The notes under the pieces are model-generated. The model had not been told where the DNA came from. It worked only from the letters and a program-made list of their open reading frames with translations, and searched no databases. The translations under genes were made by a program, and so were the position numbers. DNA of 39,933 bases from Candidatus Polarisedimenticolia bacterium (lineage in GTDB: Bacteria > Acidobacteriota > Polarisedimenticolia > Gp22-AA2 > AA152), in NCBI GenBank assembly GCA_036004685.1, contig DASYRE010000003.1, positions 1 through 39,933 on the forward strand, given 5' to 3'. Shown here piece after piece: positions 3,551-33,749 of the stretch (within the stretch, counting starts at the first letter, position 1; every line of letters starts with the position of its first letter).

Positions 3551-3632
3551 GGGATCGCTCCGGATAACGCCACCAAAGGCCGCCTTGTACGATGCGGCAT
3601 TCTGTTTGCTTGTAGCCGACCCACTCTTTTCC

Positions 3633-4811: not shown

Positions 4812-5583
4812 ACAGCCTGAACCAGTCGCCTAGAATTTGAATGAACGCGAATACAATGAAGGTAACATTTGATATCAAGTACCGCCGCCAGAGGCGGCGA
4901 GGATCGTTGATTAGGCGATGGAGCCATTCGAGGCCTGCCGCCCGGACCCATGAGGGTGCTTCCGGGATTGAGCCCGCGACGAAATCAAACGCCGCTCCTA
5001 CTCCTATCATAGCTGTTTCGGGCAAGAAGGGACTATGCTCCAGCATCCAGATTTCCTGCTTCGGGGCCCCCAAGCCCACCCATAGTATTCTGGCTCCGCT
5101 TCTACGGATACGCTCCATAGCCTCGGCGTCTTCCTCGCGAGAGATAGGCCGAAACGGCGGCGAATCGTATCCGCTGATCATCAGGCCTGGATATCGCATC
5201 GTCAAGACTTCGACTAATCGCCTGGTGACCGCGGGAGCTCCACCATAAAAGTAATGGCCCACAGGCTCCTCTGACGCATACGCGCATGTCGCACGGAGAA
5301 GATCCGCACCTCGTACCTGGTGTGGATGTCTGGCTCCGAGTAGCCTTGCCACCCATGTTACCGGTCGCCCATCGGCAAGAGCCAGGATTGAAGAGTTCGT
5401 CGCTCGGCGCAGCTGCGCGTGGGTTCTGCCTAGGCTCACTGTGTGAGCGTTAGCTAGGCAGACATAGCCTCCTTCATGTTTTCGAGCCGCGTCTACAATC
5501 CTCTGCACAGCGTCTTGAAGGTTGATTGGACATAGCCATGAACCGAGCAGACAGACTCCCTGGCTTTCACGCGATTCGTTCAT
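4783..5583 (-). CDS. WecG/TagA/CpsF-family glycosyltransferase (GT26)
   Basis: Members add ManNAc, ManNAcA or related sugars to a lipid-linked GlcNAc. The 266-residue length fits the family. Visible motifs are CLANAHTVS (42-50), ADGRP (70-74) with the conserved Asp, YFYGG (111-115), WVGLGAPKQEIW (168-179), GVGAAFDFVAG (194-204) and AGLEWLHRLINDP then RRLWRRY (216-235). The hydrophobic C-terminal stretch (240-256) is longer than in the shortest members and could sit on the membrane. The presence of wecB in the same operon fits a ManNAc donor, though that pairing is inferred. It overlaps the genes on both sides (17 and 29 bases). Confidence 0.92.
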   Translation of the reverse strand: MNESRESQGVCLLGSWLCPINLQDAVQRIVDAARKHEGGYVCLANAHTVSLGRTHAQLRRATNSSILALADGRPVTWVARLLGARHPHQVRGADLLRATCAYASEEPVGHYFYGGAPAVTRRLVEVLTMRYPGLMISGYDSPPFRPISREEDAEAMERIRRSGARILWVGLGAPKQEIWMLEHSPFLPETAMIGVGAAFDFVAGSIPEAPSWVRAAGLEWLHRLINDPRRLWRRYLISNVTFIVFAFIQILGDWFRLYGDYKGHRD

Positions 5584-6769: not shown

Positions 6770-6797
6770 TCGTACCGCCTTTCCCGCAACAGTGAGG

Positions 6798-8075: not shown

Positions 8076-8081
8076 GATCAG

Positions 8082-9500: not shown

Positions 9501-10941
9501 GTGTCCTCCTGGAACCTGTTGCCATTCCGAGTAATCCGAGCTGATGCGCCAAGCCGGTCACTAGGGCGACCACAAGGATCACCCGCCCTACGGCCCCGAT
9601 GTCGGCGGTACCGGTACCAAAGCGTGACGCGATGACTCCGAGGCCGCAGCCCATCACGGTGAATACTCCAAATCTCACGGCTGGATAGTCGATAGGGTGG
9701 GTCACGAGAGAGCTGCGCCACAGGATCAAGCACAAGATGCCATAGCCTACCAACGTCGAGAGTGCGGCACCTGTGGCACCCCAGCTCGGTATAAGGGCTA
9801 TGTTGCCGACGGTATTGAGCAGAACAGCCACCCATGTGGCCGCTGCAACGGGTGTCGGACGATCGCGAAACATGACACCAACATTCAGGGGATAACTGAG
9901 CCCAAGGAAAAAATAGGCCCCTAGCAGGATTGGGATCAGAAAAGCCGCCTTCTCGTATCCGGCGGGCGCTACCAGCGCGATAATCTCCCTTCGTAGGCAG
10001 CAGACAACCGCAAACATTATCACGCTGGGAACCAGGAACAGAGCCAGAGCGCGGACGTAACCCGCACTCCCTTCATCACCCGATCCCACCTGGAACCTTC
10101 CGGCAGCCCATCCAATTGCGAAGGGACGCACCACCGCGACCTCGAGAATGGTCGCTACTTTGTACGCCACGGCATAGACGGCGACTTCCCGCAATCCACG
10201 AAAGCCCGCCAGAAAATATCGATCTGCTCCGAAAAGCACGAAATTCCCGAAGCCTGCGATTACCATGGGCAGTCCATACTGCAATGCCTCGTTGGCGAAA
10301 CTTCTGGCGAACAAGGCCCGTGGCCGGAGAAACGCCAGAAGAATGACCAGCGCCGTGGCCTCCCCTGCTAGCCACGCCCAGGCCGCGACTTGAAGATTCA
10401 GGTGTCCTCGCAATGCGGCAGTACCGGAGACGGAGAGTTGTACGGCGACACGGGTAAAAGATAGGCAACCGAAAGCGAACGGGCGATTCTGAGCTCGAAT
10501 GACACCCATCCCCACATTCAGCATGCTTTGCAACGCGGCGATGAAAGTGCCAACGATGATGAGACCGCCGTGCACTCGGCCGACCCAGATGTCGTGTCCG
10601 AGCCAAAACACGAGGATGCCGAGCCCGGATCCGATTGCTCCAAGTACCAGTGCAAGAGACAGGCTTTGCGATACGACCTTTTGTCGCGCTTCAATGTCTT
10701 GCGCCAGGTGCCAATGCTTAATGGCGACAGAATCCAAACCGCAGGTCAGGAATACGGCGAAGACCTGCGCTGCGATTGAGAAGAGAGACCAGAGACCAAA
10801 GTCCTCTGGAGAAAGGAACCGTGTGTAGATGGGTAAAATGAGGAAGGAAATCGCGCCCGCGAGGATGCTACTTAGTAGGTAGACAGGCTGGTTTCGCAAG
10901 AAATGCGTGTATCCAGTCTTCTGTTCCAGCGCAGACATCAT
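9481..10941 (-). CDS. Wzx-type lipid-linked oligosaccharide flippase (MOP superfamily)
   Basis: A 486-residue protein with about 12-14 membrane segments in the MOP exporter superfamily. These carriers move undecaprenyl-linked repeat units from the cytoplasmic to the periplasmic face. The N-terminus matches the family (YLLSSILAGAISFLILPIYTRFLSPEDFG, of which the L-P-I-Y-T-R-F-L-S-P-E-D-F-G core near 36-49 is diagnostic). The central region contains QYGLPMVIAGFGNFVLFGAD, a typical repeat of the second half. The first of two ATG codons is at 10941, preceded by GGTGA seven bases upstream. It follows the TPR gene by 69 bases with no clear promoter or terminator between. Confidence 0.9.
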   Translation of the reverse strand: MMSALEQKTGYTHFLRNQPVYLLSSILAGAISFLILPIYTRFLSPEDFGLWSLFSIAAQVFAVFLTCGLDSVAIKHWHLAQDIEARQKVVSQSLSLALVLGAIGSGLGILVFWLGHDIWVGRVHGGLIIVGTFIAALQSMLNVGMGVIRAQNRPFAFGCLSFTRVAVQLSVSGTAALRGHLNLQVAAWAWLAGEATALVILLAFLRPRALFARSFANEALQYGLPMVIAGFGNFVLFGADRYFLAGFRGLREVAVYAVAYKVATILEVAVVRPFAIGWAAGRFQVGSGDEGSAGYVRALALFLVPSVIMFAVVCCLRREIIALVAPAGYEKAAFLIPILLGAYFFLGLSYPLNVGVMFRDRPTPVAAATWVAVLLNTVGNIALIPSWGATGAALSTLVGYGILCLILWRSSLVTHPIDYPAVRFGVFTVMGCGLGVIASRFGTGTADIGAVGRVILVVALVTGLAHQLGLLGMATGSRRTRDLVGV

Positions 10942-11010
10942 CCCGGGTTCACCGTGCTTTTATCATCTTGGGCGCAGGAGAAGGGCGTGGAACCTCATCC
11001 CGAAGGCTTA

Positions 11011-12294
11011 TTAGAGCCGACCCGAAAGTTCTTCTATTTTGAGACTGAGGACTCTGTTGCGCGGGTCCAATTCCGCAGCTTTCAGATACTCTGCGAGCGC
11101 GTCTACATAGCGTCCTTGCATTTCAAATGCCTCTGCCAGTCCGGCGTGCATTACAGAATTCATGTCACGTGAAACCCGGCTCTCTCCGAACCTGCTTTTT
11201 AAGAATTGCCATCGCGCAATTGCTTTCCCGTATTGGCCCGCCCGGAGGTAGGCCATCGCGAGTGCATGATGAATGTGAAGTTGGGTATCGTCGATCCGCA
11301 AGGCAGCTTCGTACGCGGAAATTGCGTCTTGAATCCGACCTTCCCTGAAGTATGCCTGACCCGCCAGATAGCGTAAGGCGGCCCGCTCACGAGGATCTTT
11401 GATTCGACCCACATGCTCCGCCGTTTTCACAAGCTCCAAGACTGCGGCGGTCTTCCCATCATTCATGTAGCGTCGAACCAGGGCGGACAAGACCTGGAAA
11501 CTGTTCGGAGCTCCCGGCGCTGCGTCGAGGTACTCATGCTCGGCCTCCGAATCGAACCCTCTTTCAGCGAGAAACTCGGCCAGAATTACACATGTCCTCG
11601 GCTCATGCTGGATAAAATCCCGCAATTCTGACACCGACGTCACCGAGCTCCACAGAACTGTGAGGATGTCCTTGGACAATGCGGGATTCTGTCGTAGGAC
11701 CGTGGAGAAAATCCGTTTCGCAGAGGTAATGTCACCGAGCGCCAGCCAGAAGGAGCCGATGCGATAGTGGAGCTGGGGTTTGTAGGGATCGAGGGAGTCC
11801 GAAATGGTCAGGAGCTGGGCGACGGCCTTGCCCGAAGCTTCGAGCCGCTCGGCCGAGAGATTCGCTTCGAGGTTCTGGATAATCGTGGCCTTCACGAATT
11901 GGTACTCGGCGGAGCAGGGGTTCAGCTGGATGGCATGGTTGATCGACCATAGCGCTTCGCGCAGGAGGGTGACGAGGCTCGGGCTCGGCGCGCCCCCGCT
12001 CGAACCCGCGGCCGGCTGCAGGCTCTCGGTCTCGGCCATGACGGTAAAGAGAAGGGCCCGCTGGTACTGGACCTCCGGCAGGTCGGGGACGAGCCGATCG
12101 GCCCGCGCCAGCACGAGCTGCTTGCGCGCCACGATCTTCGGGTCGGGCGGCTTCATGCTGTCGGGGGGATACTCCTTCTGGAGCTCGGCGTACTCGGTCA
12201 GCGCGTCCGCGCCTCTCCACTGCGCCGCGGCCAGCGCGCCGAAGCCGAGAAGGCCGGGAATCCCGAGAACGAGGAGCGCAAGGCGCCTACCCAT
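11011..12294 (-). CDS. TPR-repeat protein with an N-terminal membrane anchor
   Basis: A 427-residue protein. Residues 5-26 (LALLVLGIPGLLGFGALAAAQ) form a signal anchor, so most of it should lie in the periplasm. At least four TPR-like helical pairs follow, for example GSFWLALGDITSAKRIF, GQAYFREGRIQDAISAYEAAL, AMAYLRAGQYGKAIARW and AEAFEMQGRYVDALAEYLKAA. TPR proteins often accompany polymerases in exopolysaccharide loci as scaffolds or regulators; the role here is inferred. It overlaps the upstream polymerase-like gene by eight bases. Base composition changes within the gene: counted lines are about 70-73% GC near 11.94-12.12 kb and 50-60% from 11.46 to 11.82 kb. Confidence 0.8.
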   Translation of the reverse strand: MGRRLALLVLGIPGLLGFGALAAAQWRGADALTEYAELQKEYPPDSMKPPDPKIVARKQLVLARADRLVPDLPEVQYQRALLFTVMAETESLQPAAGSSGGAPSPSLVTLLREALWSINHAIQLNPCSAEYQFVKATIIQNLEANLSAERLEASGKAVAQLLTISDSLDPYKPQLHYRIGSFWLALGDITSAKRIFSTVLRQNPALSKDILTVLWSSVTSVSELRDFIQHEPRTCVILAEFLAERGFDSEAEHEYLDAAPGAPNSFQVLSALVRRYMNDGKTAAVLELVKTAEHVGRIKDPRERAALRYLAGQAYFREGRIQDAISAYEAALRIDDTQLHIHHALAMAYLRAGQYGKAIARWQFLKSRFGESRVSRDMNSVMHAGLAEAFEMQGRYVDALAEYLKAAELDPRNRVLSLKIEELSGRL

Positions 12295-13765
12295 GGGTTC
12301 CCTCCCCTTCGGCCCGGAGGGCGGGCGCGGCCAGCAGCGTCAAGCATCCCGCCAGGAACGCCAGCGCCAGGAGATTCGCGGGAATCTGCAATCCGAAATC
12401 GAACAGCTCGTGTAGCGCGACGGCCGAAAGCCCCAAGCCGCAGGCCGTGAGCAGGACCTGTCCAGCGACGCGGCCGCGCGCCGAGCGCCACCAGAGCCGC
12501 GCCACGCAGGCGATGCCGAGCGCCAGAAGCGCGCCGCCGGCGAGCCCCGACTCGGAGAGGACCTGAAGGTAGTCGTTGTGGGTGTAGTCGTAGAAGGCCG
12601 TCGTCGTGGCCTCGCGGTACCGCGGGAAGACGTGCTGGAACGTCCCGACGCCGGTGCCCAAAACCGGAAAGTCCCGCACGATCTCGAGGGTCTTCCGCCA
12701 CACCGCCAGGCGCCCCCCGGGAGCGGAGAATTCCGTCGTCAGGACGGAGTAGCGGCCGGTCAGGGTCCAGTAGCCGACGCCGTAGGCGGGGATGAGGACG
12801 GCCACGGCGAGCAGGGCGATCAGCAGCGTCTTCCGCAGGCTCCAGCCCTGGCGGAACTGCAGGAGGCAGAAGAGGACGGCGCTTCCGAGGCCCAGGATGA
12901 TGCCGGCGCGGGAATAGGAGAGGACGAGGCCGATGACGAGGATCGCGATGCACAGAATCAGGGTCAAGTTGAGGCTGGCGCGGCGATCGGTCAGCCCGAG
13001 GAGGCGCTCCCGCCAGGTTTCGGTCATGGCCGGCGTGCGGAGCCGGGAGAACAGCAGGCCCAGGGCGACGAGCAGCGACATCTCCAAGAATGCCGCGAAA
13101 TGGTTGCGGTTGATGAACGTGCCGGTCGCCGCTTCGAGGTAGTAGCGCTTCTGGTAGGTGAAGATGTGCTGGTGGCCGCTCAGGTACTCGAGGAGCCCGT
13201 AGAAGGCCTCGAAGGTGCCCATCCCCACGAAGACGTAGAGCAGGACCCGCACCTGCCGCGCCGTACGGAACTGGTTGATCAGCAGGAAGAGGAAGACGGT
13301 GAAGGCGATCCCTTTGAGCAGGTAGGTGCGCGTCGCGCTCGGCACCTGCGAGATCGGCCGCCAGGCTACGGGGGCGACCGGCGCCTGCCCCAGGACCGCC
13401 GCGTCGGTCGCGGCGATGTCGCGCGTCGTCGCGGCGTAGCCGGGAAGCGTCTTGCCGTAGAAGCCGGCCGTGCCGGGGGAAATCGCCCGCAGCGCCGCGG
13501 GCGGGAGCGGCACGAGCTGGAAGCCCATCAGGAGGAGAAAGCCGAGAGGCGCCAGGAGCAAGGAGGCGAAGTGGACGCGGGTACCGGGAAACAGGAAGAG
13601 GCGATACATGAAGAGAAGCCCGACCAGGGCGACCGACAGCTCGAGGGGAGAGTAGGCCCACGGCTCGACCGAGCCGAACGGGAGCGGGGCCACGGCCACG
13701 ATCACGAGGAGGCCGCCCCGGATCAGCGTGTCGAGGGTTCGTTCCAGGCGGCCGGCATGCTTCAT
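12287..13765 (-). CDS. O-antigen ligase/polymerase-like membrane protein (Wzy_C family), high-GC copy
   Basis: A 492-residue polytopic membrane protein with about 11-12 segments. The family signature lies in the large loop near 365-405: LGTGVGTFQHVFPRY, then YTHNDYLQVLSESGLAGG, where the H-N-D-Y-L and E-S-G-L residues match Wzy_C proteins. I start at the ATG at 13765; a TTG immediately before it is also in frame. It lies 27-30 bases after the kinase gene and overlaps the TPR gene by eight bases. A second Wzy_C protein sits in the low-GC half of the same operon, so one of the two may act as ligase or be redundant. Which is the true polymerase is open. Confidence 0.87.
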   Translation of the reverse strand: MKHAGRLERTLDTLIRGGLLVIVAVAPLPFGSVEPWAYSPLELSVALVGLLFMYRLFLFPGTRVHFASLLLAPLGFLLLMGFQLVPLPPAALRAISPGTAGFYGKTLPGYAATTRDIAATDAAVLGQAPVAPVAWRPISQVPSATRTYLLKGIAFTVFLFLLINQFRTARQVRVLLYVFVGMGTFEAFYGLLEYLSGHQHIFTYQKRYYLEAATGTFINRNHFAAFLEMSLLVALGLLFSRLRTPAMTETWRERLLGLTDRRASLNLTLILCIAILVIGLVLSYSRAGIILGLGSAVLFCLLQFRQGWSLRKTLLIALLAVAVLIPAYGVGYWTLTGRYSVLTTEFSAPGGRLAVWRKTLEIVRDFPVLGTGVGTFQHVFPRYREATTTAFYDYTHNDYLQVLSESGLAGGALLALGIACVARLWWRSARGRVAGQVLLTACGLGLSAVALHELFDFGLQIPANLLALAFLAGCLTLLAAPALRAEGEGTHG

Positions 13766-13794
13766 CAAGGTCGGAACCCGTTCCGGGGGGCTGT

Positions 13795-16062
13795 CTAGGC
13801 CACGGGAGGCGGAGTGGTGCCCGCCGCTTCTCTCCCTTCAGAGTCGGTTTCGTAACGGTAGTGACGGTAGCGATAGCGATACGAGTAATAGTCGCCGGCG
13901 TGGACGTCCATGTCGTTGAGAACGACGCCGAGAATGTTGGCCTTGGCCTGCTGGAGCTTCTCGCGCCCGCGGATGGCCGCGGGCTTCGCGGTGCGGCCGC
14001 ACTGGACCACCAGGATCACGGCGCCTGCCTTGGCGGCCATGATCACCGGATCGGCGACCGAAAGCAGCGGCGGAGAGTCGATCAGGACGTGATCGAACTG
14101 GGAGCTCTTGCGGAGCGTTCCCAGCAGGAAGTCGAAGTGCTCGGAGGCGAGCAGCTCGGACGGGTTCGGCGGGATCGGCCCGCTCGCGACCAGGAAGAGA
14201 TTCGGGATCTCCGTCTCCTGGACGATCTCCCCGAGGTCGGCATTGCCGGACAGGTAGCTGGAGAGCCCGGCGAAGTTGCCGGCGCCGAGGGCCTTGTGCA
14301 GCCGCGGCCGCCGCATGTCGCCGTCCACCAGAAGGACTCTCTTGCCCGACTGGGTCAGGGTGATCGCGGTGTTCAGGGTGGTGACGGTCTTTCCTTCCTG
14401 CGGCTCGCTGCTGGTGATGACGATGATCCGGGGCGGCGAGTCGGCGGTGGAAAGGAGCAGCGAGGTGCGTAGCGTCTTATAGGCTTCCGAGGCGGAGGAG
14501 GTGGGGTCCCGCATCGTCACCAGGTCGACGGCGGGCGACACCGGCTCGCGCTTGACCCGCCGGCTCGCGGCGAGCTCGCCAGGGCCGCTGGCCGAGACCA
14601 CCATGGGAATGGCGCCGAGCACCGGGAGCTGCACGAACTTCTCGACGTCGGCCGTCGACTTGATCGAGTTGTCCAGGTATTCGAGGAAGAAGGCCATCCC
14701 CACGCCGAGCCCGAGGCCGACGACGAGGCTGAGGAGGATGTTCAGCTTCTTGTTCGGACGGAAGATCGAATCCGGGATCTCGGCCGAGTCCACGACCCAG
14801 ATGTTGCCCGTGCCGGCCACGTTCTTGAGGCGCGACAGCGACCCCGTCTCGGATTCGCGCTGCATCAGCCGGTTCAGGATCTCGCGCTTCGAGTCGACCG
14901 CGGCCTTCAGGTTGGCGTACTCGACGGCGTACTGCTTCTGCTTGATCGAGTCGCTCTTCTGCCCCTCGAGCGCGCCCCGCACGGTGCGTTCGTGCGCCGC
15001 CGCCTGGTTGTACTCCATCTTGGCGGTCTTCAGCGTGTTGTCGTAGATCTTCCGCGACTCGGTCGCCATCCCCTCCCGGGCGTTGTCCCATTCCGCCTTC
15101 AGACGCTGCATGTCGGGCCAGTCGGCCTTGAACTGCTTCGACTTCTGGGTGTACTCGCGCTCCAGCTCGGCGGTCTTCTGGCGGAGCTGCTGGATCAGGT
15201 TGCTCTGGGTCACCTCGGGAATCGACTCGGGGCTCGTCGTCTCCAGCTCGCGGTAACGGGCCTCCTTGCGGGAGGTCTCGACCTGCGCCTCCAGGACGTC
15301 CTGGTTGAGCTGGCCGAGCTTCTGGTTGACGATGTTCTCCTTCTCGTCGAGGCCGATGATCTGCTTCGCCTCGCCGTACTCGTTCAGCTTCGCCTCGAGA
15401 TCGGAGATCTGCTTCTTCATCTCGTCGGTCTGCGTGGCGATGAACTCACTGGCCTGGGCCGTCGTGTCGTAGCGGGCCGACTGGTTGAACTCGATGTAGG
15501 ACGTCGCCACCGCGTTGGCCACGCGGCTCGCCAGCTCGGGATCGACGCTGATGAAAGAGATCTCCACTAGGTGCGTGTTCTTCAGCGGGTTGATGTCCAG
15601 GCCGCCGAGGGTGAACTCGATATAGGGCTTGTCGGGATCCTCGGGGAGGCCCTCCAGGGGCGACTTGCGGACGAACGACGAGAGCCTCTGCATCAGCCCC
15701 TTCCCCTTCGAGCGGGCCACGACCCGGTTGACCACCGGGTCGTTGCGCAGGTCGAGCTTCTGCATCGCCTTCCGGGCGACGTTGCGGCTCGACAGGAGAC
15801 GGTACTGCGTCTGGTAGAAGTCGTTGTACGAAAGGTAATCGTAGCCGACCGGCTGGACCTGCTGGAACTGCAGGACGTTCGGCTGCTCCCGCTCGATCTG
15901 GATGGTGCAGGTGGCCATGTAGGTGGGGGCGATCAGGAAGGATCCGAGCGTGACGGTGATCACCAGGACCAGGACGGCCGTGAAGACCACCCAGCGCCTC
16001 TGGACCAGGACGGTCCAGTATTCCATCAGGTTGATTTCCCGGGAGGCGGCGTTTTCGCTCAT
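13795..16062 (-). CDS. Wzc-type polysaccharide co-polymerase and tyrosine autokinase
   Basis: A 755-residue inner-membrane protein controlling chain length and export. Order: Wzz-type N-terminus with a membrane segment (24-44), a periplasmic part with long coiled coil (about 205-400), the GNVR-like region before a second membrane segment (441-461), and a cytoplasmic BY-kinase domain (about 525-720). The kinase has Walker A SSEPQEGKTV (551-560, Lys558), Walker A-prime VLLVDGDMRRP (576-586) and Walker B VLIDSPP (659-665). The tail carries seven tyrosines between 725 and 737, the usual autophosphorylation cluster. Its ATG overlaps the stop of the exporter gene (TGATG). No Wzb-type or PHP phosphatase lies in the window. 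Confidence 0.95.
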   Translation of the reverse strand: MSENAASREINLMEYWTVLVQRRWVVFTAVLVLVITVTLGSFLIAPTYMATCTIQIEREQPNVLQFQQVQPVGYDYLSYNDFYQTQYRLLSSRNVARKAMQKLDLRNDPVVNRVVARSKGKGLMQRLSSFVRKSPLEGLPEDPDKPYIEFTLGGLDINPLKNTHLVEISFISVDPELASRVANAVATSYIEFNQSARYDTTAQASEFIATQTDEMKKQISDLEAKLNEYGEAKQIIGLDEKENIVNQKLGQLNQDVLEAQVETSRKEARYRELETTSPESIPEVTQSNLIQQLRQKTAELEREYTQKSKQFKADWPDMQRLKAEWDNAREGMATESRKIYDNTLKTAKMEYNQAAAHERTVRGALEGQKSDSIKQKQYAVEYANLKAAVDSKREILNRLMQRESETGSLSRLKNVAGTGNIWVVDSAEIPDSIFRPNKKLNILLSLVVGLGLGVGMAFFLEYLDNSIKSTADVEKFVQLPVLGAIPMVVSASGPGELAASRRVKREPVSPAVDLVTMRDPTSSASEAYKTLRTSLLLSTADSPPRIIVITSSEPQEGKTVTTLNTAITLTQSGKRVLLVDGDMRRPRLHKALGAGNFAGLSSYLSGNADLGEIVQETEIPNLFLVASGPIPPNPSELLASEHFDFLLGTLRKSSQFDHVLIDSPPLLSVADPVIMAAKAGAVILVVQCGRTAKPAAIRGREKLQQAKANILGVVLNDMDVHAGDYYSYRYRYRHYRYETDSEGREAAGTTPPPVA

Positions 16063-17396
16063 CAGAAGAAAGTCTCCGGGACGTAGATGCTGTCGCCGTT
16101 CACCAGGACCATGTTGGCCTGCTTCCCCTTCCGCACCGCCTTGAGATCGACCTTGTACATCTCCTGGGCCCCGTCCGGGCGGTTGCGGATCAGCACGATG
16201 CCCTTCTGCGAGGCGCGCTCGCTGAGCCCTCCGGCCGCGGCGATCGCCTGCAGGAGGTTCAACGGCCTGGAATTCTTGTATTCCACCTCGCCGGGCTTGC
16301 GCACCGCCCCGTCGACGTAAACGTGCAGGATCCGGTCGATCGGGATGTTGATCACGTCGCCGGGGAGGATCGGGATGTTCAGCTCCGGGTTCCCCTTGAT
16401 CATCAGGTCGTCGAGATCGACGTCGATCCGGGTCGTCGCGCCGGAGCGATCGGACCGGAGCACGTAGAGGTCCTTGCCGGCCTGCTGCGTCAGCCCGCCC
16501 GCCTCGGAGATCGCTTCGAGCAGCGAGCGCTGGCCGAGCATCTCGACCGTCCCCGGCTTCTCCACGGCCCCCACGACGCTGACTTTCTTGCTCTTGGCTT
16601 CCTTGACGAAGACCGTGACCTGAGGATCGGTCAGGTATTTCGCGCTGAGGAGATCGCGCAGGCGCGCCTCGGTCTCCTTGACGGTGAGGCCGCTCACTGG
16701 GATGACCCCCAGAAGCGGCACCGAGATCGTGCCGTCGCCTGAGACGCGCACCGTGCGGTTCAGATCGGGCTGCTCGAAGACGTTGATCTCCAGCAGATCC
16801 TCGCCGCCGATGACGTAGTCCGAGCGCTCGGTCGGCAGCATGACGCCGAGCCGCGCGGGCGAGGCCGTCCCGGCGACTCCCGCGTCGGGCCTGGAAGGGG
16901 CGTCGGTTTTCGGAGGAAGCGGGGCGCTGCCGGCTCCCGCCGCCGCTCCTGCCGCTCCCGGGACGGCTGCCGCGGCGGTGTCGAAACGGACCACCAGGGT
17001 GGCCCCCTCGCCGCGCACCGTGGAGGGGCAGGGCCGCTTCAGATCGAACACGACCTGCGTCCCCTGGACGCCTCCCGTCGCGGCGGAGATCGAGATGCCG
17101 CTCACGACCTCCGAGTCGACCGGCAGCTTGGCCTCCTTGATGGCGTTACGGACGTTCGGAAGCTCCAGCACGACGCGGGGCGGCTCGGAGTCGACCCGGC
17201 GGCTGAACTGAAAGGCCCCGTCGCAGATCAGCAGGAAGGCGCCGCTCCGGCCGTCGGGGCGGACGTCGAGAAGCGAGGTGACGCTCTTTTCCGGGAAAGC
17301 GGCGGCGGGGACGAGAAGAAGCCCCGCCGACAGGGTCAAGAGGACCGCGCGCCGCCGGAGCCCCTGAAATGCCCTCTGGTTCATGTTTTCCGCCAT
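16062..17396 (-). CDS. Wza-like polysaccharide export protein with N-terminal AMIN domain
   Basis: A 444-residue secreted protein. A signal peptide covers about 1-34 (arginine-rich, then LLTLSAGLLLVPAAAF), with no lipobox cysteine, so it is probably not a lipoprotein as E. coli Wza is. Residues 38-138 look like an AMIN domain (VVLELPNV near 75-82, GTQVVFDLK near 112-120), known from PilQ and AmiC and linked to peptidoglycan. An Ala/Pro-rich linker follows, then the poly-export domain (190-267, with YVIGGEDLLEINVFEQPDL) and two SLBB domains (about 271-318 and 358-405). It probably forms the periplasmic or outer-membrane export channel. ATG codons at 17396 and 17384 are both possible starts. 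Confidence 0.92.
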   Translation of the reverse strand: MAENMNQRAFQGLRRRAVLLTLSAGLLLVPAAAFPEKSVTSLLDVRPDGRSGAFLLICDGAFQFSRRVDSEPPRVVLELPNVRNAIKEAKLPVDSEVVSGISISAATGGVQGTQVVFDLKRPCPSTVRGEGATLVVRFDTAAAAVPGAAGAAAGAGSAPLPPKTDAPSRPDAGVAGTASPARLGVMLPTERSDYVIGGEDLLEINVFEQPDLNRTVRVSGDGTISVPLLGVIPVSGLTVKETEARLRDLLSAKYLTDPQVTVFVKEAKSKKVSVVGAVEKPGTVEMLGQRSLLEAISEAGGLTQQAGKDLYVLRSDRSGATTRIDVDLDDLMIKGNPELNIPILPGDVINIPIDRILHVYVDGAVRKPGEVEYKNSRPLNLLQAIAAAGGLSERASQKGIVLIRNRPDGAQEMYKVDLKAVRKGKQANMVLVNGDSIYVPETFF

Positions 17397-17420
17397 CTCC
17401 GTCGAATTCTCCTGATTCTA

Positions 17421-18653
17421 TCAGAAGTTATACGCGTAGGTCACCATCGCCGTGTTTCTCCGCCGATCGAGGAAATCGAAGGTGGAGAGGCGCCTCCAGC
17501 GACCCACCCGGAGGCCCAGGCGCGCCTGGTTGTTGAACCGGTAGGAGGCGCCGGCGAAATAGGAATGCAGGTGATCGGTCCGGAAGCCGTCGACCAGGAC
17601 TCCCGTGTCGAGGTCGAGCTGGGTGGTGAGCTCCGGGTAGTCGACGCGCTGCCGGTCGCCGCCCACCTCCCCCGCCACGCGATCGGTCAGGAACTGCGTC
17701 AGGGTTGCGCCGTAGCCGGTGAAAACGTAATAGACGTTGTTGGGGGCGATCGTGAACCCGGTGCTTCTCTTTCCCCGGCCTTCCAGGTTGGTCCGGCCCG
17801 TCATCCGGTAGAGGAGGTTGCCCTCTCCGACGAGCCCATGGAACCCTTGCTGCTGCGGATCGTCGGGATCGAGGTTCTCGACGCCGACTTTGACCGAGCC
17901 CCGCAGGAACGCCGAAGGATCCAGGTCGAAGCCCAGCGAGATCCGGCGGGACTGGGAATCCTTGGGCTTCCCTTCCGGCTTGTCGAAGGAGATGCCCCTG
18001 CCTTCCCATTCCACCAGGAAGGTGGTCTTGGGCAGGAGCTTCTTCCGTCCGGTGACCCTCAGGTTGTTCTCGACCCGGTTCTCGAAGTCGGGAATGTTCT
18101 CCCCCTCCTCGCTGTCGCTGATGTAGCGGAAGCGATCCCTGCCGAGCCGCAGCTCCAGGGACGATCGCGACAGCTCGTATTTCACGCCGGCGCCGAAGAT
18201 CCGCTCGTTGCGCCGGATCCGGAAGTCGAACTCCGCCGTGCTCGGCCTTTCCTTGAAGGTCATGGCCTGGAGCTCGGTGAAGAAGGTGAGCTTCTTCAGA
18301 TAGACGTTCGACTGGAGCCGCGCGGCGTTGTTGAAGTGGTTCTGGGAGGAGGTCTGGGCGAACCAGACGTAATCGAGCCTTTCCTCCGCGGCGATCGCAG
18401 CGCGGTTGGAGAAGAAGGTCACCACGCGGAAGCCGCCCTCGGCGGTGGAGGTGAAATCGGTCACCCGGTCGTTGTCGTCCAGGAAGACGTTGTCGTCGTA
18501 ACCGGTGTCCTTGAAGAGGAGGAAGGGGCGCATGCGGAAAGGACCGACCCGCATCATCCCTTCGAGCGGAAAATCCTTCTCGAGGCTTCCAGCGAGCGGC
18601 AGGCCCGGGGCGCCGAGCAGAAGGAGGGCGAGGCTCAGGAAAGCTCGGCGCAT
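17421..18653 (-). CDS. Outer-membrane beta-barrel protein of the exopolysaccharide locus
   Basis: First gene of the operon, 410 residues. A clear signal peptide (MRRAFLSLALLLLGAPGLPLAG) is followed by alternating polar and aromatic strands such as LRVTGRKKLLPKTTFLVEWE and ASYRFNNQARLGLRVGRW. The chain ends YAYNF; a C-terminal phenylalanine after a strand is the usual recognition signal for barrel insertion. Barrel proteins in similar positions (EpsL-like or outer_membrane_beta-barrel families) are thought to help the polymer cross the outer membrane. That role is inferred from context: no enzyme motif is visible. It is 24 bases upstream of the AMIN-Wza gene. Confidence 0.82.
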   Translation of the reverse strand: MRRAFLSLALLLLGAPGLPLAGSLEKDFPLEGMMRVGPFRMRPFLLFKDTGYDDNVFLDDNDRVTDFTSTAEGGFRVVTFFSNRAAIAAEERLDYVWFAQTSSQNHFNNAARLQSNVYLKKLTFFTELQAMTFKERPSTAEFDFRIRRNERIFGAGVKYELSRSSLELRLGRDRFRYISDSEEGENIPDFENRVENNLRVTGRKKLLPKTTFLVEWEGRGISFDKPEGKPKDSQSRRISLGFDLDPSAFLRGSVKVGVENLDPDDPQQQGFHGLVGEGNLLYRMTGRTNLEGRGKRSTGFTIAPNNVYYVFTGYGATLTQFLTDRVAGEVGGDRQRVDYPELTTQLDLDTGVLVDGFRTDHLHSYFAGASYRFNNQARLGLRVGRWRRLSTFDFLDRRRNTAMVTYAYNF

Positions 18654-18677
18654 GCATTCCCAGGGATGGAGCGGTTT

Positions 18678-18693
18678 GGGCGGAAAGCCCGCC
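18678..18693 (-). other. Short hairpin in the leader of the exopolysaccharide operon
   Basis: On the minus strand GGCGG and CCGCC arms flank a GCTTT loop between the predicted promoter and the first start codon (18653). It could affect translation or mRNA stability. It lacks a T-tract and is not a convincing terminator. No ops/JUMPstart motif was seen in this leader. Confidence 0.35.
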
Positions 18694-18701
18694 AGTCCTG
18701 A

Positions 18702-18731
18702 ATTCTAAGGGATTTCCAATCCAGGGGTCAA
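18702..18731 (-). promoter_or_regulatory. Sigma70-type promoter for the exopolysaccharide operon
   Basis: Read on the minus strand, TTGACC (18731-18726) is separated by 18 bases from TAGAAT (18707-18702). Transcription would begin near 18695, about 40 bases before the ATG of the barrel gene at 18653. No other strong promoter is seen inside the 14-gene operon. Confidence 0.65.
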
Positions 18732-18741
18732 TGGAGGTCCA

Positions 18742-18911
18742 TGCGTGTTGCGTCTGCGAAATAGCGTTAACACCGAGGCCGTCGAGGCGCCCGGATCGCA
18801 AGGCGCGACGAAGCGCCGCGTACCCGGAGTGGTACGCCAGCGAGGCGCAACGCAGCGAGCCGGGATGGATCGACGGCCAAATGTAACGCGATTGAGGAGA
18901 CGCAACACCCA
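18742..18911. repeat. 170-bp palindromic element with terminal inverted repeats
   Basis: The two ends are imperfect inverted copies. The left end begins TG-C-GTGTTGCGTCT and the right end, reverse complemented, begins TG-G-GTGTTGCGTCT; both continue with AAT, GCGTTA, CA and then GGCCGTCGA. The interior keeps pairing (CCCGG and CGC blocks) to a central hairpin with GCGTACC and GGTACGC arms and a six-base loop. No reading frame inside looks real. It fills the gap between two operons and stops exactly at the TAG of the DUF4388 gene (18912-18914). It resembles a REP- or MITE-like dispersed element; only one copy is present in the window. Confidence 0.75.
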
Positions 18912-19619
18912 CTAAGCTTTCATGAGGGCGCCGACGATGAGGAGGCCCCAGACCACCTTGCAGAGGACGAAGTCGTTCATCGGCAGCGAGTCGCAGATCT
19001 CGGAGAGGGTGCGGGTCTCCTGGCAGAGAGTCAGGATCTGCCGCTCCCCAGGCATCAGCCTCGCCCGCTCCGCGAGATCGTCCGCCTCCTTGGTGGACCG
19101 ATACTCCGTGCTCAACCCGCCCACCACCTCGTAGACGCGGGCCCACGAAGGGATCCGCCGCACTCCTTCCAGGATCAGCTCCAAGGGGTGGGCCTTGATC
19201 GATATCTCCTCCGCGGCGGCCGCCGTCTTCTCCAGCTCCCAGCTCCCCTCGGTCCAGGCGAAGACGCTGAACACGATGTCCTTGAGCTGCTCCTGCAGGG
19301 CGCGGTCGAGATCCTCCTCGGTGATCTTCTTGCGCGCCCGGAGGACCTCGCCGTGACGCTTGTGCTCCTTGAGCGCGGTATCGAGGCAGGTCATGAGGTC
19401 GGGCAGCGAGACGATGCCGCGTTTCAGCAGCGTCTGGACGAGCCGATCGTCGCGGTCGGTGGAGGTCGCGAAGGTGATCTGGCCGCGGTTCAGGTGGAGC
19501 GCTTTGGTCACGGAGCCTTGCCGGAGGACGAGCCTGCCCGTCTCTCCTTTCCGGTGAAGCCGGTGGACCAGGACCGGCACCGTATCCGACTGGATCTCAG
19601 ACCCTATCCTCTCGGTCAT
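18912..19619 (-). CDS. DUF4388 (PATAN-like) domain protein
   Basis: A soluble 235-residue protein and the last gene of the kinase/PEGA operon. Residues about 10-110 match the DUF4388 pattern: a GETGRLVLRQG-like strand pair near 25-35, LHLNRGQITFATS (41-53), and then helices with LLKRGIVS. The second half has GSWELEK near 124-130, another typical element, then helices ending with LPMNDFVLCKVVWGLLIVGAL. The family occurs next to two-component and motility or cell-surface genes, and its biochemical role is not known. A GGAGGGAG ribosome site precedes the ATG at 19619. The gene sits 37 bases after the PEGA/PDZ gene, and its stop abuts the palindromic element. Confidence 0.8.
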   Translation of the reverse strand: MTERIGSEIQSDTVPVLVHRLHRKGETGRLVLRQGSVTKALHLNRGQITFATSTDRDDRLVQTLLKRGIVSLPDLMTCLDTALKEHKRHGEVLRARKKITEEDLDRALQEQLKDIVFSVFAWTEGSWELEKTAAAAEEISIKAHPLELILEGVRRIPSWARVYEVVGGLSTEYRSTKEADDLAERARLMPGERQILTLCQETRTLSEICDSLPMNDFVLCKVVWGLLIVGALMKA

Positions 19620-28990: not shown

Positions 28991-29713
28991 TCAGGCGGTC
29001 CGTGAGAGCAGGGCGTCGTAGGGGTTCGGAATGGCCTGTTCCCGGAAGCGCCGCGTCACGCGCTCGGCGTCATAATCGAATCTCCGGAAATTGACGTCGA
29101 TGCCCTTGCCGATGTTTCCCGTGTAAATCACCGTATAGCCCGTCCGCGGATCGGAATCGAGAGGCATGCCGACGCTTCCGACGCAGATGAAGTGGTGGGT
29201 CCGGACCTGCCGGTGGAAGTGCTTGTGGGTGTGGCCGAACAGGATGACGTCCGCCTCCGACGCCTTCGAGTATTCCCGGAAGGTCAGCTCGTCCGAGTCC
29301 TCGTAGAGATACATGGTGTTGTCCAGCGGATTGGCGTGGTAGAGCGCGAACGACATCCCCCCCTCCTGGAACCGCTGCTCAAAGGGGAGGTTGCCGAGGA
29401 TGTTCCGGCTGATCGCGTTGACGTGCGACGCCGTCCACGGGTATGAGATCCGGGCCGCCTCCATCAGGCGGGGATCGCCGTGGATGGCCCCGGGATCCTC
29501 GCCCCCGCAGGAGACGTTCTCGTCCCAATTGCCCCGTACGCCGCCCAGGCCGGCGCTTCGGAGCAACTGGATCACTTCGTCCGGGAAGGGGCCGTAGCCG
29601 ACGAGATCTCCGGAATGGAAGATCCGGTCGTATCCCTCCTTCCGCGCTTCGGCGAGGCATTTCTCCAGGGCCGGAAGGTTGGCGTGGATGTCTCCGAGGA
29701 TGATCAGCTTCAT
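28991..29713 (-). CDS. Calcineurin-like metallophosphoesterase (YfcE/MJ0936-like)
   Basis: A 240-residue cytoplasmic phosphoesterase with the full two-metal site: Asp8 and His10 in GDIHANL, Asp36 in SGDLVGYGP, Asn62 in RGNWD, His126 in YHANP, and His161 and His163 in GHTH. The GDLVGYGPFPDEV stretch is typical of the subfamily that cleaves phosphodiesters. The true substrate cannot be read from the sequence; cyclic or linear phosphodiesters are possible. It has its own promoter and apparently almost no leader. Its stop lies 30 bases from the aconitase stop, with no clear terminator between. Confidence 0.9.
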   Translation of the reverse strand: MKLIILGDIHANLPALEKCLAEARKEGYDRIFHSGDLVGYGPFPDEVIQLLRSAGLGGVRGNWDENVSCGGEDPGAIHGDPRLMEAARISYPWTASHVNAISRNILGNLPFEQRFQEGGMSFALYHANPLDNTMYLYEDSDELTFREYSKASEADVILFGHTHKHFHRQVRTHHFICVGSVGMPLDSDPRTGYTVIYTGNIGKGIDVNFRRFDYDAERVTRRFREQAIPNPYDALLSRTA

Positions 29714-29763: not shown

Positions 29764-30969
29764 CTAGCGGGCGATCGGGATCGAGAAGAAGAAAACGCTC
29801 CCGGAGCCCGGCCGGCTCTCGACCCAGATCTCTCCCCCGTGCGCCTCGACCAGGAACTTGGAGATCGAAAGCCCAAGCCCGGTGCCCCCGGCGGATCGCG
29901 TGTTCAGGCTCTCGGCCTGATGGAACTTCTCGAAGATCCGCTTCAGATCCTTGCGGGGGATCCCCACGCCGTTGTCCGACACGGAGGCTTGCAGGACGCG
30001 CCGCCCCCCGGTGCGATCCCCCGGCGGCTCGGCCCGGATGGCCAGCTCGACCCGGCCCCCCGTGGGCGTGAACTTGAGGGCGTTGGAGAGCAGGTTGTCG
30101 AACACCTGGCGGAGCCGCTCCGGGTCGGCGTGCACCGGCGGGCAGGAAGCGGGCAGCGACTCCAGAAGCGCGACCTCCTTCAGCCGGTAGCGGGCCCGGA
30201 ACTGATCCATCGCGGCGCGGGCCGCCTCGGCCAGCGAGCAGCGGCGGAACCTCATGGAGAGCCGGCCCGACTCGATCTCCGACATGTCCAGGAGATCCTC
30301 GACGAGGCCGACGAGATGGCCCGTTTCCTCGGTGATGATGCGCAGCATCTTCTCCTGCTTCCGGTTCAGGGCGCCGATCTTCGCCTGCGTGATGACGTCG
30401 GTGGCGGCGCGGATGGAGGCGAGAGGCGTCTTCAGCTCGTGGGAGACGCGCGAGATGAAGTCGGACTTCATCCCGCTGAGCCGCTCGTCCTCCTCGGCTC
30501 CCTCCTCGAGAATCGCCAGCGTCCCCCAGAAGGTCCCGCCGGCGTCGCGCAACGGGGCCAGCAGCATCTTGACGCCACCGTCCTCCGGCGACGGCAGCCT
30601 CAGCACGTCCGTCCGGACCCCCGCATGCCGGGGGCGGCGCATCTTCTGGAGAAGCGGCCGAACCGACCTGCGCCTCCCCAGGCTCTCGAGCGGCCCGGAG
30701 CCGGGAAGCCCCAGCATGCGCCGGGCGCTCTCATTGATCAGAAGGATCCTGCCCTGGCAGTCGGTCAGGACGACGCCGGCCACCAGGCTGCTCACGATCA
30801 GGGAAAGGCGGGTCCGCTCGGCGCGCAGGTGCTCGCGCAGCGCCGCGACTTTCTTCGTCTTCTCGGCGAGCGCTCGCCTCAGGAAGGCGGGCGACACCGC
30901 CGCGCCCGGCTTTTGCTTCTTGAGCGGGGCCGCGGCCGCCGCGGAGAGAGCCGCGTGAGACTTGAGCAT
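29764..30969 (-). CDS. Soluble PAS-domain sensor histidine kinase
   Basis: A 401-residue kinase with no membrane segment. Order: an Ala/Lys-rich N-terminus, a short coiled coil (35-55), a PAS domain (about 55-155, VAGVVLTDCQGRILLINESARRM), a DHp domain with His177 in RVSHELKTPLASIRAATD, and an HATPase domain with Asn296 in DNLLSNALKF, DNGVGIP (332-338), FEKFHQ and GGTGLGLS (361-368). I chose the ATG at 30969. The frame is open to 31146, but the extra residues are a shadow of the receiver gene. It lies 26 bases after that gene and probably phosphorylates its receiver domain. Confidence 0.93.
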   Translation of the reverse strand: MLKSHAALSAAAAAPLKKQKPGAAVSPAFLRRALAEKTKKVAALREHLRAERTRLSLIVSSLVAGVVLTDCQGRILLINESARRMLGLPGSGPLESLGRRRSVRPLLQKMRRPRHAGVRTDVLRLPSPEDGGVKMLLAPLRDAGGTFWGTLAILEEGAEEDERLSGMKSDFISRVSHELKTPLASIRAATDVITQAKIGALNRKQEKMLRIITEETGHLVGLVEDLLDMSEIESGRLSMRFRRCSLAEAARAAMDQFRARYRLKEVALLESLPASCPPVHADPERLRQVFDNLLSNALKFTPTGGRVELAIRAEPPGDRTGGRRVLQASVSDNGVGIPRKDLKRIFEKFHQAESLNTRSAGGTGLGLSISKFLVEAHGGEIWVESRPGSGSVFFFSIPIAR

Positions 30970-30995: not shown

Positions 30996-31811
30996 TCAGC
31001 TTCCGAAGTAGCTGACCTCGGCGGTGAAAGAGACGACGGGAACGGTTTCCACCGTTCCGGTCTTGAAGTCCCGGATCTCGATCCCCTTGCGCTCTCGATC
31101 GGTAGGGGCGTAGAAGCTCCGCGCCAGCCGCGAGAGGCGCTTGCACAGCTCCTCCGAGAGATCTTCGATCTCGTCCTGCTCTCCGGAGAGGAGGATCCGG
31201 AATCCGTACGTGTCGACGAACTCCACGCGCCCGTCCTGCGTCTCGGCGTCCACGAAGCTTTCCGCCTCGCGCCGGAGGGTTTCCAGGCTCTCGGCGTACT
31301 TGACCTCGCCGTATTTCTTGCGGAAGACATCCATCGAGCGCGCCTCCCAGCGGAGGATGCAGAAGGCGCCCTGCTCCCCCGCCGCGCGCCGGCGCTCCAT
31401 CTCGTCCTCGAGCGAGCCGCTGCTCGGGGCGCGCACGCCCACCCGGCGCGACAGCAGCCGCTCGACCAGCCCTTCCAGCTCTTTGGCGCTGAACGGCTTC
31501 GTGACGTATTCGTCGGCGCCGCAGTCCTTGCCCCAGTACACGTCCTCCCGCTGGCTCTTGGCGGTGAGAAGGATCACCGGAGTGTCGCCGTGGAGCGGAT
31601 CGGTCTTCACCTTGCGGCAGACCTGGAATCCGTTCTGTTTGGGCATCATGACGTCGAGGATGAGGAGGTCGGGCTTGTCCCGGTAGATCTTCTCCATCGC
31701 CTGATCGCCGTCCGCCGCCACCAGCACCTCGTAGCCGAGCGTCTCCAGGTTCATCTGGAGAACCTCCCGGATGCTGGCGCTGTCGTCCGCGACGAGAATT
31801 CTGCCCGCCAT
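30996..31811 (-). CDS. Response regulator with a degenerate GGDEF-like output domain
   Basis: A 271-residue protein. The receiver domain (about 3-125) is complete: an acidic pair in ADDS, the phospho-acceptor in LLILDVMMPKQNGF, LLTAKSQ with Thr, and YVTKPFS with Lys. Residues about 145-270 resemble a nucleotidyl-cyclase fold (FCILRWEARSMDVFRKKYGEV, then FVDTYGFRILLSGEQDEIEDLSEEL), but the GGDEF catalytic loop is replaced by DTYGF, so it should not make c-di-GMP. The ATG at 31811 starts right before the first strand; a GTG at 31817, overlapping the upstream stop, is also possible. Output may be by protein contact. Confidence 0.85.
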   Translation of the reverse strand: MAGRILVADDSASIREVLQMNLETLGYEVLVAADGDQAMEKIYRDKPDLLILDVMMPKQNGFQVCRKVKTDPLHGDTPVILLTAKSQREDVYWGKDCGADEYVTKPFSAKELEGLVERLLSRRVGVRAPSSGSLEDEMERRRAAGEQGAFCILRWEARSMDVFRKKYGEVKYAESLETLRREAESFVDAETQDGRVEFVDTYGFRILLSGEQDEIEDLSEELCKRLSRLARSFYAPTDRERKGIEIRDFKTGTVETVPVVSFTAEVSYFGS

Positions 31812-31813
31812 CC

Positions 31814-32434
31814 TCACACCTCTCCGCTTTCCGGGTCGGGCCCTTGGCCGCCGGCGATCGCCGGCGAAGCCTGGCCCGAGAGCTGGCTGGTCATCTGCTG
31901 CGCGGCCTTCTCCACGAGCTGCACGATTCTCCTCTGCTTCTCCTCGAGCCGCCCGAGCCGCTCGGTCAGGAGCAGCTCGGCCGCGCCTCGGATCGACGTC
32001 AGGGGTCCCCGCAAGTCATGACGGACCTGGCGCACGAACTCCTTCGCGATGTCCTCGTGCATCACGGTCGCCGTGAGATCCACGACGAGCGCCGCCGTCT
32101 TGGCCCCTCCCGGCGGGCCGGAGAGCGGGGCCGCGGAGACCTGCAGGTAATGGCGGGATTGCCGCTCGAAAGTCACCAGGCGGTTGACGGGCATGCCCGA
32201 GCGGCAAGCCTCCAGGAGGATCTTGAAAATCTCGCCCCGGGGAAAGGCGTCCGAAGAGACGGTGTCGGCGGCGAGGCTCCTCACCGGCCCCCCGAGGATT
32301 TTCTCGGTCGGAGCGGAGGCGAAGAGGACTTCTCCTCGCGAGTCGAGGACCATCACCGCGGCCGGAATGTCCTCCAGGGCCGCCTCGGGAAGCGATCCGC
32401 CCTCACTCCTCAGGACCCGTGCGGAAACCGTCAT
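31814..32434 (-). CDS. PAS-DHp protein: histidine-kinase-like protein lacking the ATPase domain
   Basis: A 206-residue soluble protein. Residues 20-120 form a PAS domain (IPAAVMVLDSRGEVLFAS, then HYLQVSAAPLSG and ALVVDLT). Residues 127-185 form a DHp helical hairpin with an intact H-box: RHDLRGPLTSIRGAAELLL, with His139. After the second helix the chain ends in a Gly/Pro/Ser-rich tail; there is no N-box, G1 or G2 motif. The stop is a normal TGA overlapping the next gene, and the downstream frames encode the receiver protein, so no missing domain follows. It may be phosphorylated in trans or act as a dimerising adaptor or phosphatase. Confidence 0.85.
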   Translation of the reverse strand: MTVSARVLRSEGGSLPEAALEDIPAAVMVLDSRGEVLFASAPTEKILGGPVRSLAADTVSSDAFPRGEIFKILLEACRSGMPVNRLVTFERQSRHYLQVSAAPLSGPPGGAKTAALVVDLTATVMHEDIAKEFVRQVRHDLRGPLTSIRGAAELLLTERLGRLEEKQRRIVQLVEKAAQQMTSQLSGQASPAIAGGQGPDPESGEV

Positions 32435-32714
32435 GGTCTCTTCCTTCCGTGTCCCCGTTCGCGAGACACCTAAGGCTCATCGTTGCAACAGCAAAGGGTG
32501 TGCCATGGCCCGCGCGCTCGGAGCTTTCTCGTAACCTGCTCAAGCAAAAGAAAGTTCTCCGCGCGCCGGGGCCGGCTCACTCGATCGCGGTGACAATGAA
32601 TTGCCAGGAAGTGCCAATCTCTGTCGGCGCTTTGACGGAAGGCGCGCGACGAAGAGTCCAAGGATAGTTCAGGGAAGGACCGGCGGCCGGGGCCGGCCTG
32701 GTGTGGCGTCTCGA
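32435..32714. other. Intergenic region between aroB and the phosphorelay operon
   Basis: These 280 bases hold no convincing gene. On the minus strand they contain the sigma54 promoter (32490-32505), an imperfect inverted repeat upstream of it (32601-32617), and two GC-only palindromes (about 32562-32576 and 32685-32698) without T-tracts. The second lies just past the aroB stop and could stall polymerase or the transcript end, but it is not a standard terminator. Confidence 0.6.
32490..32505 (-). promoter_or_regulatory. Sigma54 (RpoN) promoter for the phosphorelay operon
   Basis: The minus strand reads TGGCACACCCTTTGCT, which matches the -24/-12 consensus TGGCAC-R-N4-TTGC-W at every defined position. 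Transcription would begin near 32479, about 45 bases before the ATG at 32434, with a GGAAGGAAGAG ribosome site between. Such promoters need an AAA+ activator; none is encoded in this window. Confidence 0.75.
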
Positions 32715-33749
32715 TCAGGGGGACGGACGCAGCGCGGCGAGCACGCTTTCATCCGCGATCGGCAGGGTGTAATCCTCTCCGCGGCGCGCCATCGCGCCGA
32801 TCTCCCGCGGCAGGGCGTAGCGCAGCTCTCCCCGGCGGGCCTTCTTGTCGGTCCGGGCGGCGGCGAGGAGCTGGGCGGGGGAGAGGCCGCGGGGCAGCGA
32901 GGTCGGAAGCCCGAGTCGATCCAGCAACGCTTCGAGCCGCTCGGCGTCCCGGCGGCCCAGGAGCCCGGCGCGGCAGGCCACACGTGCTTCGAGGACCATC
33001 CCCACGGCCACCGCCTCGCCGTGCGGCAGCCGGTAGCGGAGGCGATGCTCCAGGGCGTGGCCGAGGGTGTGGCCGAAGTTCAGGACGGCGCGCCGATGCG
33101 CCTCCCGCTCGTCGGCCTCGACGATTCTCGCCTTGACGCGGCAGCAGGCGGCCACGAGCTGGGCGAGAGCATTCGGCCGGCGCCGAAGCAGCGGGCGGAC
33201 GGAGCCCTCGATCCTCCCGAAGAGCGCCGCGTCCCCCACGACGGCCGTCTTCACCGCCTCGGCGAGCCCGGAGCGGAACTCCCGCTCCGGCAGGGTGGCG
33301 AGCGTGGCCACGTCGGCGAACACGGCGGCGGGGGCGTGGAAGGCGCCGATCAGGTTCTTGCCGCGCGGATGATCCACGGCCGTCTTTCCTCCGACCGCGG
33401 CATCGATCATCGCCAGGAGGGTAGTGGGGACGGGAATGAAGGGAACTCCCCGCAAGTAGGTGGCGGCCGTGAACCCCGCGAGATCGCAGACGACCCCGCC
33501 GCCGAGCGCCACGACGGCGCAATCGCGTCCGCCCCCGTGCGCCAGCATCCGATCCTCCAGCCTCCCCTTCATCTCGCGGCTCTTGGATCGCTCGCCGGCG
33601 GGGACGGTCAGGAGGACCGCGTCGAGCCCCGCCCGCTTCAGCCGCGCGAGACTGGCGCGGCCGTACAGGGGGCCGACGTGGCTGTCGGTGATCAAAAAAT
33701 AGCGGTGGGCCGGAACGCTGGCGCGAAGGCGCCGGGGGAGCGCCGCCAA
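32715..33749 (-). CDS. aroB: 3-dehydroquinate synthase
   Basis: It converts DAHP to 3-dehydroquinate, the second step of the shikimate pathway, using NAD+ and a divalent metal. Family motifs are ALGGGVVCDLAGFTAATYLRG, PTTLLAMIDAAVGGKTAVDH, GKNLIGAFHAP, the metal-site region with GLAEAVKTAVVGD, and NFGHTLGHALEH with its His ligands. From the TTG at 33749 it has 344 residues, with GGAAG seven bases upstream. However, the codons before it read FVHVGSGLLAAL, which resembles the usual AroB N-terminus, and no ATG, GTG or other TTG lies between there and the preceding stop. The true start may be a rare codon such as the ATT at 33833. The gene follows atpF directly. Confidence 0.93.
   Translation of the reverse strand: MAALPRRLRASVPAHRYFLITDSHVGPLYGRASLARLKRAGLDAVLLTVPAGERSKSREMKGRLEDRMLAHGGGRDCAVVALGGGVVCDLAGFTAATYLRGVPFIPVPTTLLAMIDAAVGGKTAVDHPRGKNLIGAFHAPAAVFADVATLATLPEREFRSGLAEAVKTAVVGDAALFGRIEGSVRPLLRRRPNALAQLVAACCRVKARIVEADEREAHRRAVLNFGHTLGHALEHRLRYRLPHGEAVAVGMVLEARVACRAGLLGRRDAERLEALLDRLGLPTSLPRGLSPAQLLAAARTDKKARRGELRYALPREIGAMARRGEDYTLPIADESVLAALRPSP

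Follow-up and report, generated by a model that had tools for sequence, protein, structure and literature searches.

In an uncultured bacterium of a little-studied acidobacterial lineage, a predicted operon headed by a PAS-DHp gene is probably transcribed by RpoN, its 53-bp upstream array is probably read by an enhancer-binding protein (EBP) encoded on another contig, and operon and EBP gene probably form one feedback circuit that descends from a single locus (rough probability 0.75). The window, the whole stretch of DNA analysed (39,933 nucleotides), is one whole contig of its genome. According to the proposed scheme, RpoN-RNA polymerase would start from the element at 32490-32505 and transcribe the genes for the PAS-DHp protein, a receiver-GGDEF-like regulator, a histidine kinase and a phosphoesterase. 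The Fis-type DNA-binding domain of the EBP encoded at G000:C8:115085-116548 (C8 EBP) would read the array. Since the EBP gene carries an array of this kind and a sigma54 promoter as well, the operon and its regulator gene would constitute one feedback circuit. This circuit may stem from a single ancestral locus of PAS-DHp, receiver and EBP genes, with EAL and PilZ genes near, an arrangement still seen in one family of relatives (f9) and partly in another (f5). In the window's own family (f1), the EBP has probably turned into a DNA-binding modulator, either a repressor or a silent partner in a mixed complex. The ATP-driven step would then come from a second, intact EBP, the nearest one by its DNA-binding domain being G000:C11:70197. 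The motif, the array with its spacing, their conservation, the gene order and the lost residues can be read directly from the sequence; the action of RpoN and the C8 EBP on the operon promoter is deduced from it, as are the altered EBP's role and any tie to c-di-GMP or surface life. What began as a lone promoter motif thereby becomes a circuit open to experiment, in which one candidate regulator can be named.

The predicted sigma54 promoter and its operon

The minus-strand sequence TGGCACACCCTTTGCT at 32490..32505 shows 0 mismatches to the sigma54 consensus TGGCACRNNNNTTGCW. It has GG at -24, GC at -12 and the exact spacing of TGGCAC-N5-TTGCW, so that transcription is expected to start at about 32479. 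An earlier note on this DNA had described an RpoN consensus matched at all defined positions, about 55 bases before the ATG of the PAS-DHp gene (32434). Both statements hold: the measured distance is 55 bp, and the element is one of the 7 perfect matches in the genome. The predicted leader is 45 nt long and ends in GGAAGGAAGAGACC. In the window, TGGCACACCCTTTGCT is the sole match without mismatch; allowing up to 2 mismatches yields no more matches than chance would (6 seen, 6.3 expected), which leaves the perfect one as the only informative match. Genome-wide scans with patterns gave the 7 perfect motifs in 3.84 Mb and 0 for a reversed-pattern control. Motifs with 1 mismatch (73, versus 96 in the control) do not exceed the background, which restricts standalone evidence to perfect matches. 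The genome encodes one copy of rpoN and about 26 EBPs with strong sigma54-activator domains.

Among the other sites in this genome, 3 of the 7 perfect motifs lie within 12 kb near an EBP gene (G000:C51:28076, 36695 and 39782). Another sigma54-like site without mismatch precedes a MoxR-type ATPase gene (G000:C48:108898-108913), and one with 1 mismatch precedes a short Flp-type pilin gene (G000:C16:6025-6040).

All genes of the operon lie on the minus strand. The first encodes a PAS-DHp protein of 206 aa with a HisKA domain and no HATPase (31814..32434). It is followed by the gene of a response regulator with a receiver and a C-terminal GGDEF fold (30996..31811), by that of a PAS-HisKA-HATPase histidine kinase of 401 aa, counted from the ATG at 30969 (29764..30969), and finally by that of a calcineurin-like metallophosphoesterase (28991..29713), which is also found near the operon in f1 and in the sister family f2. 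Folded alone, the receiver's output domain adopts a GGDEF fold (pLDDT 93) and has GGDEF domains as its best matches; the GGDEF/GGEEF signature is absent from it in an alignment of 12 sequences. The upstream neighbour on the same strand, aroB (32715..33749), lies outside the sigma54 unit. The operon encodes no AAA+ domain, as the earlier note had said of its receiver and kinase, and the PAS-DHp protein has no ATPase domain either. Such ATPase-less PAS-DHp-type proteins accompany the receiver in five families and may be phosphotransfer or phosphatase partners. The neighbours of c-di-GMP type (EAL, PilZ, degenerate GGDEF) give only a hint of a possible link to surface attachment or nutrient state, which the earlier note had suggested.

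Elsewhere in the window, positions 2132-19619 hold an exopolysaccharide-type locus (Wza/SLBB, Wzc, glycosyltransferases, flippase, sugar transferase). The G+C content falls from about 0.66 to 0.53 in the first 12 kb, which suggests a different origin.

Promoter conservation and turnover among relatives

The relatives were grouped into the window's family f1, the sister family f2 (6 genomes) and the families f5, f7, f8 and f9. For the earlier note, absence of the motif from closely related genomes with the operon would have been grounds for rejecting the promoter. The element is, on the contrary, conserved in 3 of 3 operons of f1, being perfect in the orthologous operons of G002 and G003 (TGGCACATGCCTTGCT and TGGCACATGGCTTGCT). 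The f9 genome G018 carries it with 1 mismatch (TGGCACCCTGATTGCT). Its position relative to the receiver gene is -688 to -693 in all four genomes. The sample is defined by three f1 genomes that have the operon and by the single f9 genome with a distant sigma54 copy. With a perfect motif, an encoded RpoN and this conservation, the earlier identification of a sigma54 promoter is upheld, and the PAS-DHp operon is very probably switched on via RpoN. In the remaining f1 genome, G001, which is rated 100% complete, neither a receiver ortholog (E 1e-25) nor a close PAS-DHp was found; it keeps the EBP (loop GASPDA) together with the sigma54 promoter of the EBP gene. A scan of named genomes found one true ortholog, in an Acidobacteria MAG, the other matches being to the receiver only.

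PAS-DHp and receiver genes are adjacent in f1, f2, f8, f9 and f5. They lie downstream of aroB, directly or with one gene between, in f1, f2 and f8 where the contigs show this region. Judged by the predicted promoters, the operon is not under sigma54 control in every family, since the sister family appears sigma70-like at the same gene. The sigma54 element is absent at the operon in f2, f5 and f8. The six f2 genomes have a conserved TTGCNN-N16-TATATT instead, preceded immediately upstream in 5 of 6 by GTCA-N6-TGGC. The f5 operon shows TTGAAA-N16-TAGATT and no box, and the f8 operon has TTGACA with a weak -10 together with an exact GTCA-N6-TGAC box. TAATTT, considered as a -10 in G017, was weak and failed a stricter scan. 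RpoN is present in nearly all these genomes, which excludes its loss as the reason for the missing sigma54 sites. The receiver tree places f1 and f2 together, with f8, f7 and f9 outside; the EBP tree leaves G018 and f2 unplaced because of long branches. These topologies do not fix the direction of the change in sigma class. The families form a natural comparative set, in which the operon is of sigma54 type in two families and sigma70-like in others, the box is kept in most members, and the EBP has lost its activating residues while the enhancers at sigma54 promoters stayed.

The upstream array and its candidate reader

A three-way alignment of the diverged upstream region brings out two blocks, the -24/-12 element and an upstream activator array of 53 bp (32584..32636, minus strand). 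The array pointing to one EBP had been missed in the earlier account, of which the promoter itself stands. The conserved block consists of GTCAA-N5-CGAC followed by TTG(G/A)CA and TGTCA half-sites, and in the alignment its end falls between 117 and 78 bp ahead of the -24/-12 element. On the minus strand of the window, it comprises the box GTCAAAGCGCCGAC (32636-32623, GTCAA-N5-CGAC) and the half-sites TTGGCA (32617-32612), TGGCAA and TTGTCA (32596-32591). The distance from the end of the box to the -24 element is 117 bp, identical in the three f1 operons. The window's box reads GTCA-N6-CGAC, whereas the operons of G018 and G017 and the EBP promoters have the exact GTCA-N6-TGAC. In 10 of 12 genomes, a box of the GTCA type precedes the operon, where shuffled sequences would give 0.36; as the genomes are related, the occurrences are not 10 independent events.

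The candidate regulator is the REC-AAA+-Fis protein encoded at G000:C8:115085-116548, on a contig other than the window's, with Pfam matches to Response_reg, Sigma54_activat and HTH_8. Its gene has a sigma54-like promoter and an array similar to that of the operon. In 41 genomes of the class, the pattern GTCAN6YGAC-N105..125-TGGCACN5TTGC was found only at the EBP promoter (4 of 4 in f1) and the operon (3 of 3), with a control of 0. Within one genome, 25-29 of 53 bases agree between the two arrays and 12.5-13.2 for shuffles, the alignment being made by hand with single gaps and the P values rough. No comparable array was found at the genome's other sigma54-like promoters. A search of the genome with TTGRCA-N14..18-TTGTCA found no second site, and this part of the array thus yielded no further target.

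The EBP gene's own promoter is strongly conserved. Each of the 12 genomes of the order contains the pattern GTCAN6TGAC-N62..92-TGGCACN5TTGC exactly once (control 0), and in 12 of 12 it immediately precedes the C8 EBP gene or its ortholog. In the window's genome, this sigma54 promoter with GTCR-N6-TGAC boxes lies at G000:C8:114871-115016, and the 11 other genomes likewise have it in one place each. It is probably autoregulatory. The recognition helix IKRTTL(I/V)EKMKRLGIPL is kept in 14 of 14 aligned EBP orthologs, with K/R at the second position; phmmer gave no match of the DNA-binding domain in the PDB. Gene order also connects the two loci. In G018, the receiver gene is followed directly by an EBP ortholog (53% identical) and then by PilZ and EAL genes. 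In G014, the EBP ortholog (56%) likewise comes directly after PAS-DHp and receiver, beside a bactofilin gene; in f1 and f2 the EBP is kept beside bactofilin without PAS-DHp.

Loss of activating residues, rival explanations and known systems

The earlier note had concluded that the activator must be encoded elsewhere. A likely regulator is indeed encoded on another contig, but the C8 EBP lacks both the sigma54-contacting threonine of the GAFTGA loop and the Walker B Glu of the Asp-Glu pair by which sigma54 activators are recognised. Aligned, the loops of the four f1 genomes read GAFPDA, GAFPDA, GAFADA and GASPDA, and Walker B is LFLDD in all four; f2, f5 and f9 have GAFTDA and LFLDE. GAFTDA has been listed as compatible with activation (PMC4641369), and NorR with the equivalent change, G266D, is active (PMC2941729). 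A passage of PMC4641369 cites the inactivation of NifA by a T-to-P change. In PspF, T86A abolishes engagement of the closed complex, and E108D lowers the ATPase activity (PMC4132715). The f1 EBP should therefore, as predicted from these residues, bind the array and is not expected to open the promoter, which calls for a second EBP. The C11:70197 EBP has an intact GAFTGA and the DNA-binding domain nearest to that of C8 (22 of 49 identical), a similarity that makes it only a lead. The EBP gene is under purifying selection (dN 0.08-0.14, dS 1.1-2.1 overall), and its AAA+ part is under comparatively looser constraint in f1 than in f2, with dS near saturation. Tentatively, and at somewhat less than even odds, the motor-less f1 EBP may control sigma54 transcription from enhancers at two promoters as a repressor or mixed-complex partner, with f2 retaining an intact-looking EBP and a boxed but sigma70-like operon.

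The C8 EBP might itself be a working activator in f1, if its altered loop and the Walker B Asp still support sigma54. The retention of sigma54 sites and arrays at near-fixed spacing at both the EBP promoter and the operon agrees with this, as do the purifying selection on the gene and the GVATGV loop of D. vulgaris DVUA0100, which is thought to work. However, NifA and PspF are reportedly inactivated by loss of the threonine, each of the four f1 genomes combines three active-site changes, and a full-text literature search for GAFPDA or GAFADA found no paper, which leaves a working C8 activator rather unlikely. The missing functional loop could also mean that a different EBP activates the operon and that the C8 EBP does not bind there. 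C11:70197, with the nearest DNA-binding domain, would be an example, and two EBPs on overlapping sites are known from LuxO and SypG (PMC10162802). Such an exclusive activator is improbable, as the array is common only to the C8 EBP promoter, the C8 recognition helix is unchanged, and C8 orthologs are encoded beside PAS-DHp and receiver genes in f9 and f5.

Transcription of the operon mainly from a sigma70-type promoter or by readthrough from aroB, with the sigma54 site of minor importance, seems slightly less probable still. It would fit the conserved TTGCNN-N16-TATATT at the f2 operon gene and the position of aroB, which precedes the operon on this strand at a distance of 281 bp, with a gap in which no terminator-like site was found. 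Against it, no sigma70-like site was found in this gap of the window either, and the gap's conserved blocks are the -24/-12 element and the array. As for a chance match, a few perfect motifs per genome could arise fortuitously, but this one recurs without mismatch at the corresponding position of two diverged orthologs, is conserved jointly with the array and has 0 control matches. Chance has almost no likelihood and is refuted as far as sequence can tell.

The preferred reading, RpoN transcription with the array read by the C8 EBP, has partial parallels in known systems. FleQ and FlrA of Pseudomonas and Vibrio and DVU2894 of Desulfovibrio resemble the C8 circuit in the GTCA-N6-TGAC type of box, exact at the EBP promoters and with CGAC at the window's operon, in a Fis-type DNA-binding domain, sigma54 targets and genes of c-di-GMP type nearby. 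The FleQ box has the consensus GTCaNTAAAtTGAC, which according to its authors is unreliable genome-wide in the species studied (PMC6120874); the DVU2894 box, yGTCA-N6-TGACr, lies upstream of its own gene, and the FlrA box is GTCA-N6-TGGC (PMC4641369). In contrast to FleQ, the C8 EBP has a receiver domain and no Pfam match to the FleQ family. The EBP locus contains bactofilin, EAL and PAS kinase genes, unlike the flagellar loci of FleQ and FlrA, and the sigma54 loop is lost in the f1 EBP. The operon's regulator shares its order of receiver and GGDEF fold with WspR and PleD (WspR: Z 10.7, rmsd 3.0, 121 residues), but it has no GGDEF signature, and diguanylate cyclase activity is not expected.

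LuxO and SypG at Vibrio fischeri qrr1, two EBPs whose enhancer sites overlap at a single sigma54 promoter (PMC10162802), provide a precedent for a second activator. Both are working activators, whereas the C8 EBP, as a candidate partner, appears catalytically dead. The NtrC proteins of Caulobacter and Rhodobacter and Vibrio VspR (PMC10274813), like the f1 EBP, have kept the EBP architecture, the receiver and the DNA-binding domain and lost the loop. In the two NtrC proteins, GAFTGA was lost by deletion, while the f1 loop is substituted. These regulators act at sigma70 promoters, whereas the sites shared by the C8 EBP promoter and the operon precede conserved sigma54 promoters; retention of a GAFTGA-less EBP at conserved sigma54 enhancers, if true, would be unusual.
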